Below, piece after piece: positions 4,317 to 50,190 of a DNA stretch of 64,000 bases; the stretch's first letter is position 1, and the number at the start of each line of letters is the position of its first letter. The notes below the pieces were generated by a model that saw only the letters and a list, made by a program, of their open reading frames with translations, was not told where the DNA came from and made no database searches. Made by a program: the position numbers and the translations under genes. Origin of the DNA: Fimbriimonadaceae bacterium (GTDB lineage: Bacteria > Armatimonadota > Fimbriimonadia > Fimbriimonadales > Fimbriimonadaceae); NCBI GenBank assembly GCA_019638795.1, contig JAHBTB010000008.1:1-64000 (forward strand), written 5' to 3'.

Positions 4317-4747
4317 CGCGCCTCCACCAGCTTGAGGATCTGGGAGTTGCCGCGCATGAGGTCGTCCAGCGTGCTGCCGTCCAGGATGTGGAAGAAGGCG
4401 GCGGTCGCCCGGCGGAACAAGCTGGGCAACCGGCACCCGCCGACGAGCGGGCAACCCGAGACCGCTTCGCGCATGCACTCCACCAGGGCGGTCTCGCATT
4501 CCAGCGTCCGGACGGCGTCGCCGACGCGGATGTCGTGGGCTGGTTTGGCGAGCCGGAACCCGCCGGAGCGGCCGCGCACGGGCTCTAGGAGCCCGGCCTT
4601 GGCGAGGTTCTGGGCGACCTTCATCAGATGGTTTCTCGAGACATTCAACTGGGAGGCGACCGCACTGATCGAGACCGCCTCGGGGCTGGCGTCCGCGCTG
4701 AGCATGAGCAGGCGCAGGCCATAGTCGGTGTGGGTGGTCAAACGCAT
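4313..4747 (-). CDS. Rrf2 family regulator (NsrR-like)
   Basis: A 144-residue winged-helix repressor beginning MRLTTHTDYGLRLLML, typical of Rrf2 proteins, with the recognition helix VSRNHLMKVAQNLAKAGL and RGRSGGFRLAKP. A C-x7-C-x5-C cluster (ECMREAVSGCPLVGGC) is suited to an iron-sulfur cluster, as in NsrR and IscR. It is the first gene of a four-gene overlapping operon with the haemoglobin. NO sensing is therefore the most likely input. A palindromic operator overlaps its own start codon, which implies autoregulation. Confidence 0.9.
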   Translation of the reverse strand: MRLTTHTDYGLRLLMLSADASPEAVSISAVASQLNVSRNHLMKVAQNLAKAGLLEPVRGRSGGFRLAKPAHDIRVGDAVRTLECETALVECMREAVSGCPLVGGCRLPSLFRRATAAFFHILDGSTLDDLMRGNSQILKLVEAR

Positions 4748-5250: not shown

Positions 5251-5720
5251 ACCTGTTGGTCGCCCCAGCATGTCTGGAGGTAGTCGATCTGCCCGGTGTG
5301 CAGGGTGGCGTGCCATCCCGGCAGTCTGATCAACTGACCCATGGTCATGGTCCAACCTTGACCCGAGTCCAACTCGATGGCGACGTCTTCCGGCGTCAAG
5401 TCGTCGAGGGCGGCGATGACTTCGGCGGTACCTGCACGGAACGCCGTCACGACCTGGTCCCGGCTGGTCATGGCGGTCTCCTCCGCCTCACACTGGGCCA
5501 CCCACTCGTCCATGGTGTCCGGAGCCGGCAGCTTACGGTCACGGATCATTGCGGCAAAACGGCCGGAGAAGAGGGCTGTGTGGGCGGCTACCCTCAAGGG
5601 AGACTTCGATGTCGGTGTCGGTCGGTAGTCGAGCTTGTCGTCCGGCACATGAGAGAAGTTGCGGAGGAACATTTCCATGTTGGCCTGGGCTTGCTGTTTG
5701 GCCAGTACGATCGCGTCCAT
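5238..5720 (-). CDS. DinB-like putative metal-dependent protein
   Basis: A 160-residue four-helix DinB/YfiT-type protein. The possible metal ligands are His in VAAHTALFSGR and the paired His of GWHATLHTGQIDYLQ near the C-terminus. DinB-like proteins include thiol transferases and many proteins with no known substrate. ATG at 5720. It is convergent with the DUF1801 gene and divergent from the YdeI-like gene at 5774. No operon partner is visible. Confidence 0.88.
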   Translation of the reverse strand: MDAIVLAKQQAQANMEMFLRNFSHVPDDKLDYRPTPTSKSPLRVAAHTALFSGRFAAMIRDRKLPAPDTMDEWVAQCEAEETAMTSRDQVVTAFRAGTAEVIAALDDLTPEDVAIELDSGQGWTMTMGQLIRLPGWHATLHTGQIDYLQTCWGDQQVYVG

Positions 5721-5773
5721 GCGGCATTATTGCCTTGGGGCCAAGGCCAATGTTCGGTCAGAATAGGGTGACG

Positions 5774-6301
5774 ATGGCCACCGTAGCCAGTCCGATGCGT
5801 TTCAGTGGGCGTGTCCAGGACGCCGCCCCGGGCGAGCCGTTCCGGATACTGAGGCTCCCGCAGGGAGTCAGTGACGCTTTGTCGACCCGGAACCAGGTCG
5901 CCGTCAGGGTGCAGGTTGCGGGTGCCGACTTCCTGTCGGTCGCGTGGCCGGACGGCGAGGGAGGGCACTACTTGAAGGTGACCCCTGCCATGGCCGTCGC
6001 TGGTGACGCCGTAGACGTCGAGATTGTCCGGTCCAAGGACTGGCCCGAGCCGGACGTCCCCGCCGAGGTGGCCGCCGCCCTCGAAGACAATCCCAAGGCC
6101 CTGGAGTTGTGGAAAAGTATCTCAGCCGCGACGAGGACGGACTGGCTCTATTGGCTCGACACCGCCAAGAAGGCGGAGACGCGCCTCAAGCGGATCGAGA
6201 ACATGTGCGACATGCTGGCCAAGGGGAAAAAGAAGGTGTGTTGCTTCGACCGTTCGGGCATCTACGGCAAGGTCATCACCTGCCCGGTCCGCGAGGAGTA
6301 G
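5774..6301 (+). CDS. DUF1905/YdeI-like protein
   Basis: A 175-residue protein with an N-terminal beta-barrel DUF1905-like segment (about 9-95, MRFSGRVQ...) and a C-terminal YdeI/OmpD-associated motif (DWLYWLDTAKKAETRLKRIE). The C-terminal region has a Cys pair (KKVCCFDRSG). ATG at 5774 is preferred. An earlier ATG at 5750 is in frame, but the divergent promoter space would shrink further. The function is unknown, and family members are often annotated as antibiotic-resistance or envelope associated without evidence. Confidence 0.8.
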   Translation: MATVASPMRFSGRVQDAAPGEPFRILRLPQGVSDALSTRNQVAVRVQVAGADFLSVAWPDGEGGHYLKVTPAMAVAGDAVDVEIVRSKDWPEPDVPAEVAAALEDNPKALELWKSISAATRTDWLYWLDTAKKAETRLKRIENMCDMLAKGKKKVCCFDRSGIYGKVITCPVREE

Positions 6302-34457: not shown

Positions 34458-35312
34458 ATGGACTTGGCGAGCCTGGAGATTCGGATGACTCGGGGTGAAA
34501 ACCTGCCGATGTTGCCCCAGGCGGTCAGCGCGACCTTACGGCTTGTCGACGACCCGAACAGCTCGCAACGCGACCTTGAGAAGGCGCTGGAGACTGACGT
34601 CGCCATCACCGCCAAGATCATCCGCGCGGCAAACTCGGCGTACTACGGCGGAAACGACGTCAGCAGCGTGGGCCGAGCGATCAGCTTCCTTGGTATGACG
34701 GCAGTCCGCTCCATCGTCGTCGGCATCGCCATGCAGCAGATGATGTCGGGCAAATCACAAGTCCGCAACTTCGACAAGCTGGCCTTTTGGCGGCATTCCC
34801 TTGCGACGGCGGTCGGCGGGCGGATTCTCGGAAAGCTGAGGATGCCGGCCAAGTCAGAGGAGTTGTACTGCGCGGGGATGATCCACGACATCGGCCTGAT
34901 CGTCTTTGAACGGTATCTGCCGTCCGATTTGGACGAGTGTCTCGCGCGGTCGAAGACGACGGGAGTGCCCTTGCACCTGACCGAGATGGAGGTCCTTGGA
35001 TACAACCACGCCGAGGTCGGTGGCCTGCTCGCCAAGAAGTGGCAGATGACCGAGGCGATCCAGAACGCGGTCCGCTGGCACCACGAGCCGTCGTCGGACA
35101 CGAAGAACTACAAGACGTCCATCCTCGTCGCCGCGGCCAACGCCTTGGCCCACGAGTGCGGGTTCGCCAACAGCCAACGCGAGAACTGCCAGGAGCTTGA
35201 CTACGAGATGGCCAGCGGCATCGACATGCCGATGGAACAGGTGGACGTGATACGCCAAGTGATGATGACTGAGGTCGGCAAGGCTCAGGAAAGCTTCCAG
35301 ATCGCCGCCTGA
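34458..35312 (+). CDS. HDOD-domain signalling protein
   Basis: A 284-residue protein consisting of an HDOD fold: LPMLPQAVSATLRLVDDPNSSQRDLEKAL, DVAITAKIIRAANSAYYGG, ISFLGMTAVRSIVVG, GMIHDIGLIVFERYLP and NAVRWHHEPS. HDOD domains are degenerate relatives of HD phosphohydrolases and serve as signalling or scaffold modules in chemotaxis and stress. There is no attached GGDEF or receiver domain. ATG 34458 is the start. The neighbour to the right, across a hairpin, is the convergent EF-G paralogue. Confidence 0.88.
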   Translation: MDLASLEIRMTRGENLPMLPQAVSATLRLVDDPNSSQRDLEKALETDVAITAKIIRAANSAYYGGNDVSSVGRAISFLGMTAVRSIVVGIAMQQMMSGKSQVRNFDKLAFWRHSLATAVGGRILGKLRMPAKSEELYCAGMIHDIGLIVFERYLPSDLDECLARSKTTGVPLHLTEMEVLGYNHAEVGGLLAKKWQMTEAIQNAVRWHHEPSSDTKNYKTSILVAAANALAHECGFANSQRENCQELDYEMASGIDMPMEQVDVIRQVMMTEVGKAQESFQIAA

Positions 35313-43522: not shown

Positions 43523-43554
43523 GGTTCAAACAGTTGCTGTGGCATACTTCCAGT

Positions 43555-45855
43555 GTGAAGTTCGGCCCGACGTTGGCGGTGGTGGCAGGGTTGACGCCTT
43601 GGTGTGTGACCGCGTTCGGAGGCACCCAACAGGCAAAGAAGGCCCCGACGTTCGCCGACGATGTGAGGCCGATTTTCAAGACCCATTGCTTCACCTGCCA
43701 TGGGCCCGAGAAGCAAGAGGCGGGCCTCCGCCTTGACACCAAAGAGGGCGTCGAGAAGGGGGGCTTCTCGGGACCCTTGTTCAAGCCGGGCGACCCCAAG
43801 GCGAGCCTCCTTTACCGCCGCGTCACGAGCGACGAGGACGGCACCCGGATGCCCATGGGCTTTGCGCCCCTGAGCAATGAGAAGACGGACACCATCGCGG
43901 CATGGATCGCCGCCGGGGCCAAGGTGACCGGCGCGACGCCGTCAGCTCCGCATTGGTCTTACGTCAAACCCGTCAAGCCGACCCCTCCGGTGGTGCCCGA
44001 CCACGAATGGGGACGGCAACCCCTTGACGCCTTTGCCGAGGAGACGATGGCCAAGCACGGCGTGCGGCACGCCGGCGAGGCTGACCGGGCGACCCTGGTG
44101 CGCCGGGTCACGTTTGACCTGACCGGGCTGCCGCCGACCTATGAGGAGGCGCAGGCCTTCATCGACGACCGGAGCCCCGACGCCTATGAGAAGGTCGTCG
44201 ACCGGCTCCTGGCCTCACCGGCCTACGGGGAGAGGATGGCGTCGCTGTGGCTCGACCTGGCCCGGTACGCCGACAGCAACGGTTACGAAAAGGACGCCAA
44301 CCGGACGATGTGGCCCTTCCGCGACTGGGTCATCAAGGCGTTCAACGCGGACATGCCGTTCACCGAGTTCACCATCGAGCAGGTCGCCGGCGACCTCCTG
44401 CCCAACGCGACCAAGGACCAGATCGTCGCGACCGGGTTCCACCGGAACACGATGCTCAACGAAGAAGGTGGGGTGGACCAGGGCGAGCAGCGTTGGTTGA
44501 CCCTTGTCGACCGGGTCGCGACCACCGGGACGGTGTGGCTGGCGACCACGATCGGATGCGCCCAGTGCCATGACCACAAGTACGACCCGGTTACTAACGA
44601 CGACTTCTACCGGATGCTCGCCTTTTGGGAAAGCACCAGCGAACCGACCCTCGACCTGGCCCCTAAGCCGGTGCAAGAACTCCGGGCCAAGCTGGCCGCG
44701 GCGCAAACGAAGGTCGACGGGACGAAGGACAAGACCCCTGAGCGGGAAGCCGCGGTCAAAGAACGCGACACCCTTGCCGCTCTCTCGGCCAAATACCCCG
44801 ACTACGGCACCGCCCTGGTGATGAAGGAGCAACTGTGGAAGAGGCCCCAGACCAACGTGCGGGTCAAGGGCACCTATCTGGCCCTCGGCAAGTTGGTCAC
44901 CGCCGAGACCCCCGCCTTCCTGCCGCCTCGGCCCAACCCGAGCCCCGACAACCGGATGGGCCTGGCCAAGTGGCTGGTGAGCCGTGACAACCCGCTCACC
45001 GCCCGGGTCACCGTCAACCGGATTTGGGAACAGGCCTTTGGCATCGGCTTGGTCAAGACGAGCGACGACTTCGGCACCCAAGGCGAGAAGCCTGAGAACC
45101 AGAAGTTGTTGGACTGGCTGGCCGTGGAGTTCATGGACCAGGGTTGGAGCTTCAAGAAGCTCTGGAAGACGATCGTCATGAGCAACACGTACCGCCAGTC
45201 GTCCCTCTGTTCCGCCGATCTCCGCGACAAGGACCCCGAGAACCGGTGGCTGGCCCGCGGCCCGCGGTTCCGGTTGAGCGCCGAGGCGATCCGCGACAAC
45301 GCCTTGGCGGTCAGCGGGCTGCTCAGCCGGAAGGTCGGCGGGCCCAGCGTCATGCCCGACCAACCGGCCGGTGTGTGGCGGACACCTTACAACGGTGAGA
45401 CGTGGACGACGAGCAAGGGAGCCGACCGGTACCGGCGCAGTGTCTACACCTGGTGGAAGCGGTCGAGCACCTACCCGGCGTTCGTCACCTTTGACGCGAC
45501 GAGCCGGGAGACCTGCACCGCCAAGCGGATCCGCACCAACACGCCGCTCCAGGCCCTGGTCCTCCTGAACGACGACCAGATGCTCGCCGCCGCCCGACAT
45601 TTGGGCCGGCTGATGGAGGAGAAGGGTGTCGAACGCGGATTCGCCCAGGTGCTGGTCCGACAGCCGACGGCGGCAGAGACCAAGACCCTGGTCCAGATAT
45701 ATGAGGAGGCCCTCGTCCGCTACATGGCGAGGCCGGGAGACGCCGCCAAGTTGCTCGGCGAAGCCCAACCGACCGCTCACAGCCCGGTCGAGGCCGCGTG
45801 GGCCGTCACCGCCCAGGTGCTGCTGAACCTGGATGAAACGATCACCAAGGAATGA
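43555..45855 (+). CDS. PSCyt1/PSCyt2/PSD1 planctomycete-type cytochrome protein
   Basis: A 766-residue exported protein. The signal peptide is [19 protein letters not shown] cytochrome-like CxxCH (CFTCHGP) lies near residue 46, and PSCyt2/DUF1549 (about 145-360) contains a second CAQCHDH. PSD1/DUF1553 (about 470-735) follows, with [42 protein letters not shown]. Such proteins are abundant in Planctomycetes and allied phyla, paired with DUF1501 proteins. The role is unknown, possibly electron transfer or polymer turnover. GTG 43555 fits the signal peptide. It overlaps the next gene by four bases. Confidence 0.9.
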
Positions 45856-47300
45856 ACGCCATGAACGAAGAACGCCTGAAGGACATCACCCGCCGCCACC
45901 TGCTGAAGATGGCGGGCTACGGGGTGGGGAACCTGGCTTTGGCCTCCATGCTGGCAGAGACGGGGATGGCGGCCGGAGGCCCTGACGGCCAGCTTCGGCC
46001 GGTCGGCCCCGACTTTGCCCCGAAGGCCAAGCGCATCGTGTTCCTGTTCATGGCCGGGGCTCCGTCACAGCTTGACCTCTACGACCCTAAGCCGATGCTG
46101 AACAAGCACGACGGCGAGCCGTGCCCCGAGGAACTGATCAAGGGCGAGCGGTTCGCGTTTATCAAGGGGCGCCCGAAGCTGCTGGGTTCGCCCCACACCT
46201 TTGAGAAGGTCGGCCAGAGCGGCATCGAACTAGGCGACAACCTTGTCCACATCAAGAAGATCGCCGACGAAATGTGCCTCGTGCGGTCGATGCACACCGA
46301 CCAGTTCAACCATGCCCCGGCGCAAATCTTTGCCAACACCGGCTTCCAGATTCCGGGCCGGCCCTCGATGGGCTCGTGGTTGACTTACGGCCTCGGCACC
46401 GAGAGCAAGGACCTGCCCGGGTTTGTCGTGCTCATCAGTGGACAGAACAACCCTGACGGCGGCAAGTCGTGCTGGGGCAGCGGTTTCTTGCCCACCCAGT
46501 ACCAGGGCGTGGAGTTCCGGTCGAAGGGCGACCCGGTGCTTTTCGTCACCGACCCGCCCGGCCTGGCCCGTGAGCTGCGCCGCAAGCAACTTGACGCCAT
46601 CGGTACCCTGAACCGTGCCCACAACAAGGTGGTGAACGACCCTGAGATCGACACGCGCATCGCGAGCTACGAGTTGGCGTACCGGATGCAATCAAGCGTC
46701 CCTGAACTGATGGACGTCAGCAAGGAGTCGCCGGAGACCCACGCCCTCTACGGCACGACCCCCGGCCAACCGAGCTTCGCCAACAACTGCCTGCTGGCAC
46801 GCCGCCTGCTGGAGCGGGGCGTGCGGTTTGTCCAGCTGTACCACTGGGGCTGGGACCAGCATGGCGACTCGGAAAGCAACGACCTTACCCATGGACTGGG
46901 GCGCCAGACCTTGGCGACCGACCAGGCGAGCGCCGCCCTGGTCATGGACCTGAAGCGGCTTGGCATGCTGGAGGACACGTTGGTCGTGTGGGGCGGCGAG
47001 TTCGGTCGGACGCCGATGAACGAGGGACGCAACGGGGTCCCGTTCAAGGGCCGCGACCACCACCCCCGGGCATACTCGGTGTGGCTTGCCGGCGGTGGCG
47101 TCAAGCCCGGCACCATCGTGGGACAAACGGACGACTTTGGTTACAACATCGTCGAAGACCCCGTGCATGTCAACGACCTGAACGCCACGATCTTGCACCT
47201 GATGGGCATCGACCACACGCGGCTGACGTACAAGTCGCAGGGCCGCGACTTCCGGCTGACCGACGTCAGCGGTGAGATCATCGACAAAATGCTGAAATGA
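45852..47300 (+). CDS. DUF1501 family protein (Tat-type leader)
   Basis: A 482-residue protein with a twin-arginine-type leader [20 protein letters not shown]. The sulfatase/alkaline-phosphatase-like DUF1501 fold has [63 protein letters not shown] and [17 protein letters not shown]. The pairing with the PSCyt/PSD1 gene, translationally coupled by ATGA, is the standard arrangement. The substrate is unknown. Confidence 0.92.
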
Positions 47301-47383
47301 CCGTCATTGGTGACGGCGAGCTTATGCCCACCATGCCGACCCAACTTGAGTAGTTGTGACCATGTTCTTTTGGGACAACAGCG

Positions 47384-48001
47384 TCAGCCACTGGTCGTGC
47401 TTAGCCTCTCTAGAAGATCAGCCAAAGGCAGCTTCTTGGCGGTACCCGAGAAAGTGTCTAATTTTACGAGTGTATCAAATCCCAACTCCTTCAGCCTCTT
47501 CGCGTCAGCACTTATCCCTTCTATTTGGGCCCTCACCCCGACTTTGCCTGAGTAAGGCTCGTCATGCTTGGACATATAGTCCACTAACCACGCGCCAATG
47601 AGTTGCTCGCTCAACGTAAGTTTTGCCTTACCTGAGAGACTGTAGCAGGTGACCATGAACATGTAACTATGCCCGCTCCTGGTGTGAAGGTCATACCCAC
47701 AGACACCCTGGTCTGTATTCAGTCGACACCATGTAGGCTGACTGCTGACTCCGGCCGCAACTAGTCTGGGACGTATCAGGGATTCCACTATCTCCTTGAC
47801 ACCCTTGGCCGATAGATTTGGGTTTGCCTGAAGCTCATCTGGCCATGTCATGTCGTAAAGGGCCGCGGCGTTTCCATTCAAGCACAGATCGTACGCATTT
47901 GCTGCACTGACGTCAAGTGGTTCGACTCTCTTGAAGAACATAACAGAGGCCACGAAAGCTACGACGCAGAGCAGAGTTCCCCATAGAAGTCTCTTGTCCA
48001 T
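47384..48001 (-). CDS. hypothetical membrane-anchored protein of the A/T-rich island
   Basis: A 205-residue protein from ATG 48001 (MDKRLLWG). One N-terminal membrane helix (about 7-24) is followed by an extracytoplasmic domain with four Cys (YDLCLNG, TWCRLN, VCGYDL, TCYSLSG). A C-terminal charged tail follows. An upstream in-frame start at 48052 would add 17 residues. It is last in the minus-strand cluster with the Cys-rich peptide, pseudopilin and CxxC protein. Its A/T-richer codon use is shared with that cluster and unlike both flanks. No family is recognised. Confidence 0.7.
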   Translation of the reverse strand: MDKRLLWGTLLCVVAFVASVMFFKRVEPLDVSAANAYDLCLNGNAAALYDMTWPDELQANPNLSAKGVKEIVESLIRPRLVAAGVSSQPTWCRLNTDQGVCGYDLHTRSGHSYMFMVTCYSLSGKAKLTLSEQLIGAWLVDYMSKHDEPYSGKVGVRAQIEGISADAKRLKELGFDTLVKLDTFSGTAKKLPLADLLERLSTTSG

Positions 48002-48122
48002 TGGGCTTCTACACACATTCGATGTAGTCGATTGATTTGTTGGGATCATCACTTTGAGCTAGGGAGGATCATCTGGGACACACTTGCTCGAAGACCCGCA
48101 AGACGCGGCCTGTTGGGTTGTC

Positions 48123-48413
48123 TTAATTTGCTTTAACTCGTCTGACACAGGCATGATGGTCGAGCCCGCACTCATAGGTGTTGTCTTGATACTCGCACTG
48201 GCAACAGCCCGATCCATTTTGATAGCAGGACCACTTTGTAATGCCAATTCCAGTAAGACCACAGTCTATGCCGCAATTGCCGTCGGATTGACAACCTCCG
48301 ATCGACGTGAAACCGCCACCGGGGCCACCTCCGAAATTGCAAACTTCACTGTGAATGGTACAGGTAACCCCTATAACACTAAAGACCATAAGTAGCTTGA
48401 ATTTCGTATACAT
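48123..48413 (-). CDS. secreted cysteine-rich small protein (10 Cys after signal)
   Basis: A 96-residue precursor: signal peptide MYTKFKLLMVFSVIGVTCTIHS, then a mature part with Cys at 25, 41, 47, 51, 63, 70, 71, 73, 82 and 89 and a Gly-rich start (NFGGGPGGGFTSIGG). The ribosome binding site GAGGGA sits well before ATG 48413. An overlapping frame continues to 48059 with two more Cys (AASCGSSSKCVPDD). A one-base slip near 48146 would join it to the Cys-rich part, so the true protein may be longer. It is probably disulfide-bonded and extracytoplasmic. Confidence 0.7.
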   Translation of the reverse strand: MYTKFKLLMVFSVIGVTCTIHSEVCNFGGGPGGGFTSIGGCQSDGNCGIDCGLTGIGITKWSCYQNGSGCCQCEYQDNTYECGLDHHACVRRVKAN

Positions 48414-48446
48414 ATATCCCTCATCCAGTGAGCTGCATTAGTACAC

Positions 48447-48995
48447 TTACTCCCAAAATTCATACCCGGCGACGCTTGACCTGCCCGTCCGCTCAGTGGC
48501 ATGTCCGTCATAATATACGCCAATGCCTCGCTTTAGCCGAAAAAACACACTCGTGGAGTCTGCGAGCATGTCATGCGTGATGTCTATGAGAAGAATCGGA
48601 TTCCCGGAGGTACCCGATATATGATCTTGCCATCTGGCAAATGATGACACGTCGTCTCCCGCATTAGGCGGCGCATAGACGTAGACATCTGAGTTAGGAT
48701 CATCGTCGTACACTGGTCGACCGCCAGTATGGAAGAGTGCATTGGGAAGTTTGTAGACTCGCTTTATATCGACCAGATTGGATGCGACTCCGACGATGAG
48801 TCGAGGGTCATGTCCATAGTCGTCCGAGTAAAGGATCGAAGCTTGATGGAGTTGCCGCATTTGCGCCACTGACTTCGTGATCGTCGACTTCTCATGAACT
48901 TTGCTCATCAGCGGTTGGAGTAGAGCAACAAGGAGGCTCACAATCGCAATCACACAAAGAACTTCTACTAACGTGATTCCTCGCTTACGGTCCAT
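48447..48995 (-). CDS. pseudopilin (type II secretion/type IV pilin-like)
   Basis: A 182-residue protein with the prepilin motif RG|ITLVEV and a hydrophobic alpha-1 helix (VLCVIAIVSLLVALL), then a globular domain (SVAQMRQLHQASILYSDDYGHDPRL, FFRLKRGIGVYYDGHATE). The prepilin peptidase would cleave after Gly and methylate Ile. The HQASILYSDDYG segment resembles the pilin-like proteins of planctomycete/armatimonad DUF1559-type families. ATG 48995 is used. The gene overlaps the upstream CxxC gene by 11 bases. Confidence 0.88.
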   Translation of the reverse strand: MDRKRGITLVEVLCVIAIVSLLVALLQPLMSKVHEKSTITKSVAQMRQLHQASILYSDDYGHDPRLIVGVASNLVDIKRVYKLPNALFHTGGRPVYDDDPNSDVYVYAPPNAGDDVSSFARWQDHISGTSGNPILLIDITHDMLADSTSVFFRLKRGIGVYYDGHATERTGRSSVAGYEFWE

Positions 48996-49431
48996 GTGGC
49001 TTCTCGGCGTCGTCTCTTGAGTAGTCCTTAAGCAACCCATCAACGAAGATGTACCAGCGCCCTGTCCATTGGGGTGCCAGAGGCTCAAGTGCCTTGGGAG
49101 TCTTGCTCAATACCGGTACGTCTGGCGGGCAGTGGGTTGCACTCCATGTTTCGGGAATGTCTGCGTGAGTGAATACGACAAGTCTTTCATTGTATGGACC
49201 ATTCACTAGGTTATTGGGAACAGTGCTATGCAGCTCACAAATGGCGCAACTACCACCATAAACAACCAATACGGTGCCGCTCCACGAGATTATCCGCCCA
49301 TTCCTATCCGAATTCTCCGTAAAGACGCTCATGGCGTTCGTTACCGTTGGTCTGGTCGTTTGGATTTGGTCACGCCGCTGCTGTTGCCTTGGAGGCATCC
49401 ATACGATTCCGAAGAGGGCTGTGATAACCAT
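48985..49431 (-). CDS. thioredoxin-like membrane-anchored protein with CxxC
   Basis: A 148-residue protein with a short N-terminal hydrophobic segment (MVITALFGIVW), then a thioredoxin-fold signature: GTVLVVYGGSCAICELHS with C62-x2-C65, and a late strand GRWYIFVDGLLKDYSR. It may anchor outside the membrane and catalyse disulfide exchange. ATG 49431 is preceded by GAGG at 7 bases. It is the first gene of the cluster with the pseudopilin and the Cys-rich protein, which suits an oxidative-folding role, an inference. The family assignment is by motif only. Confidence 0.65.
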   Translation of the reverse strand: MVITALFGIVWMPPRQQQRRDQIQTTRPTVTNAMSVFTENSDRNGRIISWSGTVLVVYGGSCAICELHSTVPNNLVNGPYNERLVVFTHADIPETWSATHCPPDVPVLSKTPKALEPLAPQWTGRWYIFVDGLLKDYSRDDAEKPHGP

Positions 49432-49587
49432 CAACACACCTCAAATGATGAAGTCTTGATGTCTCACATGTGACAAATACATCTGGACGAGGCCACATGG
49501 TGCCCACGAGAACCTGTCGAGTCGGAATCGTCCAGCAATGTGACGGAATTGTTTTCGTCCCGCTTCCTGCCGGACACCCGTGCAACT

Positions 49588-50190
49588 CTAGAGGATCACT
49601 TTGCTTTTGACGGTGCCGTCCTGTTCGATGTCGTAGACCAGGGGCACACCGGTGGCGAGTTCCAGACCGACCACTTCGTCGGGGGTCAGGTCTTCCAACC
49701 TCATGGCGATGGAGCGGTTGGAGTTACCGTGGGCGACGACGAGGACGTTCTTTCCCTGGCGCAGGTCGCCCATGATGCAACGCTCGAAGAAGGGGACGGT
49801 GCGGGCGGCGGTGTCCTTCAGGCTCTCACCGCCGGGCGGGGCGATGTCGTAGCTCCGACGCCAAATGTGGACCTGCTCGTCACCATACTTGGCCCGGGTC
49901 TCGTCCTTGTTGAGGCCGGCGAGGTCGCCGTAGTCCCGTTCGTTCAGGGCCTGGTCGCGGATCGTCGGGACGGCCAAGGGGATCGTTTCCAGGATGAGGC
50001 GGAGGGTGTTCTGGGCCCGGGTCAGGGCACTGGTGTAAGCGACGTCGATGTCCTGGCCGGTGAGCTTGGCCCCGGCAGCCCTGGCCTCCTGTTCACCCTG
50101 GGCGGTCAGGGGGACGTCCACCCATCCGGTGAAGCGGTTCTCAAGGTTCCAAAGTGACTGTCCGTGCCGGACGAGGATGAGCTTGGCCAT
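49588..50190 (-). CDS. gpmA: 2,3-bisphosphoglycerate-dependent phosphoglycerate mutase
   Basis: A 200-residue glycolytic enzyme: [24 protein letters not shown] with the phosphohistidine His9, then [26 protein letters not shown] and [12 protein letters not shown]. It interconverts 3- and 2-phosphoglycerate. Slightly shorter than the E. coli enzyme but all active-site motifs are present. It lies downstream of rpsT on the same strand, past a terminator-like hairpin. Confidence 0.95.

Follow-up and report, generated by a model that had tools for sequence, protein, structure and literature searches.

Locus and gene content

The window (the whole stretch of DNA analysed, 64,000 nucleotides in length) carries four consecutive minus-strand genes at 47,384-49,437, in the order TrxL (a thioredoxin-like protein), pilin, Cys-rich peptide, and anchored protein (anc). 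These genes and their surroundings are listed below in the direction of transcription of the cassette, with the insert and the flanking genes last.

48,985-49,437, minus strand: first cassette gene, TrxL, a membrane-anchored thioredoxin-like protein of 150 aa with a GTG start and a CAIC motif
48,447-48,995, minus strand: pseudopilin of 182 aa with prepilin cleavage motif RG/ITLVEV (slash marks the cleavage point), above the cut-off of PF07963
48,123-48,413, minus strand: Cys-rich secreted peptide, 96 aa as read, with an N-terminal signal peptide
48,059-48,185, minus strand: probable +1-frame extension of the peptide gene, which includes the C-terminal Cys pair conserved in the family
47,384-48,001, minus strand: anchored protein (anc), 205 aa, with one membrane helix, a predicted extracytoplasmic NTF2-like domain and a C-terminal extension
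47,301-49,587: low-GC insert of 2,287 bp, bounded by the DUF1501 gene on one side and the phosphoglycerate mutase-like gene on the other
45,852-47,300, plus strand: flanking DUF1501 gene (PF07394), outside the cassette
49,588-50,190, minus strand: flanking gene of the histidine phosphatase family (PF00300), phosphoglycerate mutase-like, outside the cassette, with its 3' end at 49,588

The initial annotation of this DNA had described four minus-strand reading frames of lower GC content than both flanks. All four are present, with a GC content of 0.49-0.52 compared with 0.61-0.68 in the flanks and about 64% in the region, and the 11-base overlap that it gave for TrxL and pilin is exact (48,985-48,995). 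Only the pilin among the cassette proteins matches a curated family (PF07963). The genome containing the window comprises 18 contigs and 2.7 Mb. Next to the cassette, the DUF1501 gene adjoins a PSCyt1/PSCyt2/PSD1 (DUF1549/DUF1553) gene, forming a pair of planctomycete type (43,534-47,300, plus strand); five more DUF1501 paralogues lie elsewhere in the genome. The sole other open reading frame of the window that combines a hydrophobic N-terminus with at least six cysteines is found at 34,646-35,101 (minus strand; 152 aa, 7 Cys).

Recurrence of the cassette

Relatives were first collected by single-protein searches of the 113 genomes of the order, and then with profiles run against 291 genomes from the little-studied phylum Armatimonadota. 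The surroundings of the first relatives displayed the order TrxL-pilin-peptide-anc in most cases. The anc profile found matches in 81 of the 291 genomes, often several per genome. Among 85 anc genes that did not belong to the seed, a pilin stands directly upstream of 72, and in 51 cases the space between pilin and anc holds a secreted reading frame with at least six cysteines; the background frequency of such frames elsewhere in the same DNA, 0.015 per 700 bp, would predict about 1.3. Searching in the opposite direction, from the peptide profile, recovered loci missed by the anc search, most of which again lie beside a pilin. The combined count for the 291 genomes is 90 distinct peptides in 57 genomes, with a pilin directly upstream of 84, anc downstream of 80, and TrxL accompanying 63. 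The complete order is present at 61 loci in 45 genomes that belong to several classes of the phylum. Some of the loci counted had also served as training data for the HMMs; gene order is not contained in these profiles. The recurrence of this order bears out the earlier proposal that the four genes form one linked unit and rules out a chance neighbourhood.

The same annotation had named peptide homologues without the CxxC gene as evidence against its proposal, and such homologues do occur: 27 of the 90 peptides have no recognised TrxL; some of these are at contig ends or have diverged TrxL genes, but not all (loci L233, L237 and L238 are examples). TrxL is a frequent partner of the peptide, not an obligatory one, and, since some peptides lack it, it is the pilin and the peptide that form the constant pair at the core of the cassette. 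The association of the redox gene with the Cys-rich peptide, which had also been noted, holds: a recognised TrxL is found in 41 of the 59 cassettes that have peptide-sized room between pilin and anc, versus 3 of the 15 that do not (Fisher p=8e-4), and inspection by eye added seven diverged CxxC frames to the former and one to the latter. This difference connects TrxL with the peptide, as would be expected if the peptide is a substrate of TrxL. At least a dozen loci encode pilin and anc without room for a peptide, indicating that these two proteins also work without it.

Two close pairs of cassettes (L104/L106 and L112/L103) display purifying selection on all four genes, with pN/pS of about 0.1-0.4; for the mature peptide of L104/L106, pN is 0.034 and pS is 0.75. 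Substitution rates of this kind, with pN well below pS throughout, indicate that all four are real, maintained genes.

The Cys-rich peptide

An alignment of 71 homologues reveals a common core of eight cysteine columns, each conserved at 90-100%, and the number of cysteines in the mature peptide is even in 56 of the 71. The peptides carry ordinary Sec-type signal peptides, not prepilin leaders, and contain no recognisable binding domain. Searches of Pfam, NCBIfam and the PDB with 67 members returned no PDB match and otherwise only single-member noise. Two resemblances of the peptide, a weak one to a Shiga-like B-subunit Pfam model (E=0.086; score 13.3 bits, cut-off 27) and one to an antibody light-chain PDB entry, were dismissed as chance in view of this outcome with 67 members. 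As judged by these and the corresponding anc searches, the 8-Cys peptide family and the anchored protein match no described family in the libraries searched.

The window peptide as read contains ten cysteines after the signal peptide and lacks, in that frame, the last conserved Cys pair of the family. When compared with a profile built without the window, the match in frame 0 covers positions 6-76 and is followed collinearly by a frame-1 match of the tail to positions 82-100. The tail match is weak when taken alone; a frameshift is the likely reading because its collinearity, length and position add to that match: the +1 frame, which ends at 48,059, holds the Cys pair missing from frame 0 and supplies a tail of the right length. 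The window gene is thus probably frameshifted at its 3' end, by mutation or by assembly error. Accordingly, the ten cysteines originally counted stand for the frame as read, and are in part the product of the probable frameshift. Interrupted peptide genes occur elsewhere: in-frame stop codons interrupt the signal peptide or follow it closely in L039 (TAG; 5,562-5,852, minus strand) and in L041 (TGA; 4,325-4,657, plus strand), with the pilin, TrxL and anc genes open in both, and L101 has an early stop in its peptide gene.

The thioredoxin-like protein

The CAIC motif of the window TrxL comprises residues 64-67. Within the family alignment (n=49), C67 is invariant and C64 is present in at least 90% of members; identity per column averages 18%. 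The family profile detects CcmG (3k8n, E=1.8e-6), DsbE (3kh7, 1.7e-5) and ResA (4e-4) in the PDB, and the Redoxin model PF08534 is matched by 10 of the 49 members with E up to 0.1. The CxxC active site stands after the first core strand, as in proteins of the CcmG/ResA/TlpA type. As judged by profile, TrxL is a thioredoxin of the CcmG/DsbE/ResA type. In the window protein, the membrane anchor is short (about 14 hydrophobic residues), and glycine stands where several relatives have the cis-proline (WTGRWY versus WTPRFY in subgroup members). An AlphaFold model of the window TrxL, which the initial annotation had proposed as a check, reached a pLDDT of 41 from a shallow alignment of five sequences, a quality insufficient to reveal the fold; the assignment to the thioredoxin superfamily is for this reason based on the family profile, by which the earlier description of the CxxC protein as thioredoxin-like is borne out. 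A scan of named genomes with the TrxL alignment returned four Armatimonadetes/Fimbriimonadales MAG loci, in keeping with the armatimonad affiliation suggested in the initial annotation.

The pseudopilin and the host pilus machinery

The window pilin passes the cut-off of the N_methyl model PF07963 (27.0 bits; cut-off 21.2). Its best full-length resemblance is to GspG (TIGR01710), at 36.7 bits and below the cut-off of 88.85, while both Verru_Chthon models are matched far below theirs (TIGR02596, 19.3 versus 70 bits; TIGR02599, 11 versus 256.5 bits). As a query in the scan of named genomes, it produced no match. The genome that contains the window encodes one prepilin peptidase, three secretin domains and several PilC/GspF homologues. 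Judged by these gene assignments, the host could supply what the cassette pilin needs for processing and assembly, and no additional genes would be required. The same genome contains 46 pilin-type N-terminal motifs above the Pfam cut-off, and only one of these 46 genes belongs to such a cassette.

The anchored protein

The anchored protein is predicted to consist of an NTF2-like domain behind a single membrane helix (residues 3-25). The AlphaFold model (pLDDT 86.9, pTM 0.78) has NTF2-like 3k7c as its best structural match (a middling Z of 6.7; Foldseek E no better than 0.0019), and the predicted fold covers residues 27-131 approximately. A comparison of 52 family members with Pfam yielded nothing above chance. 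The window protein has one cysteine inside the membrane helix and four outside it, so that the count of four given previously is correct for the latter; these cysteines are not conserved in the family. A penicillin-binding function was rejected, because the structural matches to PBP2a and PBP5 concern mostly the NTF2-like N-terminal part of those proteins, and a role in known anti-phage defence was rejected for want of a PADLOC match to the anchored protein.

Composition, mobility and arrays

In a genome of the same genus (G052, locus L175), both flanking genes are present 287 bp apart and the cassette is absent, while the interval in the window is 2,287 bp. Thus, the unit was either inserted in the lineage of the window or lost in G052. 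The flanking genes of relatives vary from locus to locus. Across 79 cassettes, the GC content is 4.3 points below that of the surroundings, and it is lower in 70 of the 79 (Wilcoxon p=1e-12). The cassette recurs at different chromosomal sites, its own sequences differ greatly between them, and it is best read as mobile. TrxL and peptide queries found no relative on viral contigs, and viral cargo was rejected on this ground.

Several loci contain more than one unit or depart from the usual order. Three cassettes are located within 5.7 kb in L194; one peptide gene is followed by four anc genes in tandem in L192; L195 is an array of pilin-anc-pilin-anc; and in L200, two pilin-peptide pairs precede one anc gene. 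At L032 (3,459-4,594, minus strand), a second pilin with its own Cys-rich frame lies beside a rearranged cassette in which TrxL comes after anc.

Proposed function and alternatives

In our opinion, these genes are best read as a horizontally mobile biosynthesis-and-export cassette, in which a disulfide-rich secreted peptide is folded and then exported or displayed via the type II/IV pilus machinery of the host; we would assign this reading a probability of about 0.5. The peptide, which has a signal peptide, would cross the inner membrane by Sec, and the inner-membrane TrxL, being of CcmG/ResA type, would act in the periplasm to set or correct its disulfides. The GspG-like pseudopilin dedicated to the cassette would depend on the host, whose prepilin peptidase would cleave it and whose type II/type IV pilus machinery would polymerise it; it would then either push the folded peptide through a secretin or display it on a pilus. 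The NTF2-like anchored protein may act as an adaptor or chaperone that holds the peptide or the pilin at the inner membrane. The peptide as the substrate of TrxL, the pilin as the component that moves or carries the peptide, and anc as adaptor are roles that we infer. The same applies to the pilin-assisted export suggested at the outset and to the suggestion that TrxL oxidises the peptide instead of reducing or isomerising its disulfides.

The main rival to export or display is a toxin-immunity arrangement. The peptide would be an antibacterial, bacteriocin-like toxin, TrxL the oxidoreductase of its maturation, the pilin its means of reaching or crossing the outer membrane, and anc a membrane-bound immunity protein. 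Cassettes that are patchy, multi-copy, low in GC and highly diverged would fit an antagonistic role, and the extra tandem anc genes (four after one peptide in L192, and pilin-anc units without a peptide) resemble spare immunity genes. The peptide may be broken or missing while the rest is kept (the stops in L039, L041 and L101, the absence of room in L038, and the probable frameshift in the window), and sublancin is an earlier case of a disulfide peptide that is served by dedicated oxidoreductases. The close pairs, on the other hand, reveal strong purifying selection on the mature peptide and not diversification, and anc accompanies the pilin even where no peptide fits. PADLOC has no match, and a double-glycine leader and a dedicated ABC exporter are lacking; no ABC exporter is present in the cassettes examined, so that the leader and exporter of sublancin-type systems are not found there. 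On balance, we consider antagonism unlikely.

It is somewhat less likely still that the peptide is a small disulfide-stabilised cap or adhesin subunit of a specialised pseudopilus, which serves attachment and is not released. The most constant feature of the cassettes, a pilin beside the peptide (84 of 90), would suit such a pilus-tip or surface structure, as would the biology of Fimbriimonas, which is non-motile and piliated, has 79 pseudopilin genes and bears pili that were interpreted as attachment structures (PMC4072686), together with the 46 pilin-type genes of the window genome. Against this, the peptides have ordinary signal peptides instead of prepilin leaders and no recognisable binding domain, and the tandem pilin-anc units without a peptide would need a separate explanation. 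Finally, that four unrelated genes travel together as cargo without a shared function is very improbable: patchy presence and low GC would agree with it, but the order is kept across several classes at very low identity, genes overlap, searches are reciprocal, and TrxL is associated with the peptide.

Significance

No description of the TrxL-pilin-peptide-anc combination was found in a literature search. The present analysis adds two or more protein families that are absent from the libraries searched, among them the 8-Cys peptide and the NTF2-like anchored protein. Unexplained pseudopilins number in the dozens in genomes of this phylum (Fimbriimonas, 79, PMC4072686; window genome, 46). The cassette provides a subset of these with a specific partner, a diversified family of putatively disulfide-rich secreted peptides, and with a candidate role, namely one pilin per exported or displayed product, and represents a compact natural set-up for the choice of substrate by pseudopilins. 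Tentatively, and with the odds against it, one may picture a phylum-wide mobile secretion or antagonism system of a new kind, in which each highly diverged 8-Cys peptide has its own oxidoreductase, pseudopilin and membrane partner, and in which a change of pilin would redirect the shared type II/IV machinery. If the peptides are antibacterial, the cassettes would offer disulfide-rich antimicrobials from a new source.

Comparison with known systems

Like CcmG/DsbE, ResA and TlpA, TrxL combines one N-terminal anchor with a C-terminal thioredoxin-type domain that bears the CxxC motif, with profile matches of 1e-6 to 1e-4. Unlike in those proteins, column identity in the family is about 18%, the cis-proline is often replaced (by glycine in the window), and no cytochrome c maturation genes lie nearby. 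Analogously, the predicted fold of anc over residues 27-131 or so resembles the NTF2-like extracytoplasmic domains of the MecA N-terminal type, from which it differs by a Z below 8, the lack of a significant sequence match and of a transpeptidase domain, and an unmatched C-terminal extension.

Sublancin-type operons encode a small disulfide peptide beside its own thiol-disulfide oxidoreductases (BdbA/BdbB). The cassette likewise pairs a small, putative disulfide peptide with a neighbouring oxidoreductase gene; unlike these operons, it has a Sec signal peptide in place of the leader, no glycosyltransferase, a pilin in the middle, and an anchored NTF2-like protein. Verru_Chthon pseudopilin cassettes (TIGR02596-TIGR02599) are multi-copy and contain prepilin-type proteins, both of which are also true of the present cassette, but the latter has one pilin per cassette and the window pilin falls far below the cut-offs of those models.

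The closest parallel for the pilin is with the pseudopilins of type II secretion and type IV pili (GspG), with which it has in common the prepilin motif, a GspG-like full-length profile match and the presence of the machinery in the host. It differs in scoring below the equivalog cut-off, in belonging to a cassette without an assembly ATPase or secretin, and in being matched one to one with a small Cys-rich partner. We file the cassette, which is not a member of any named system, under pseudopilin-linked secretion.
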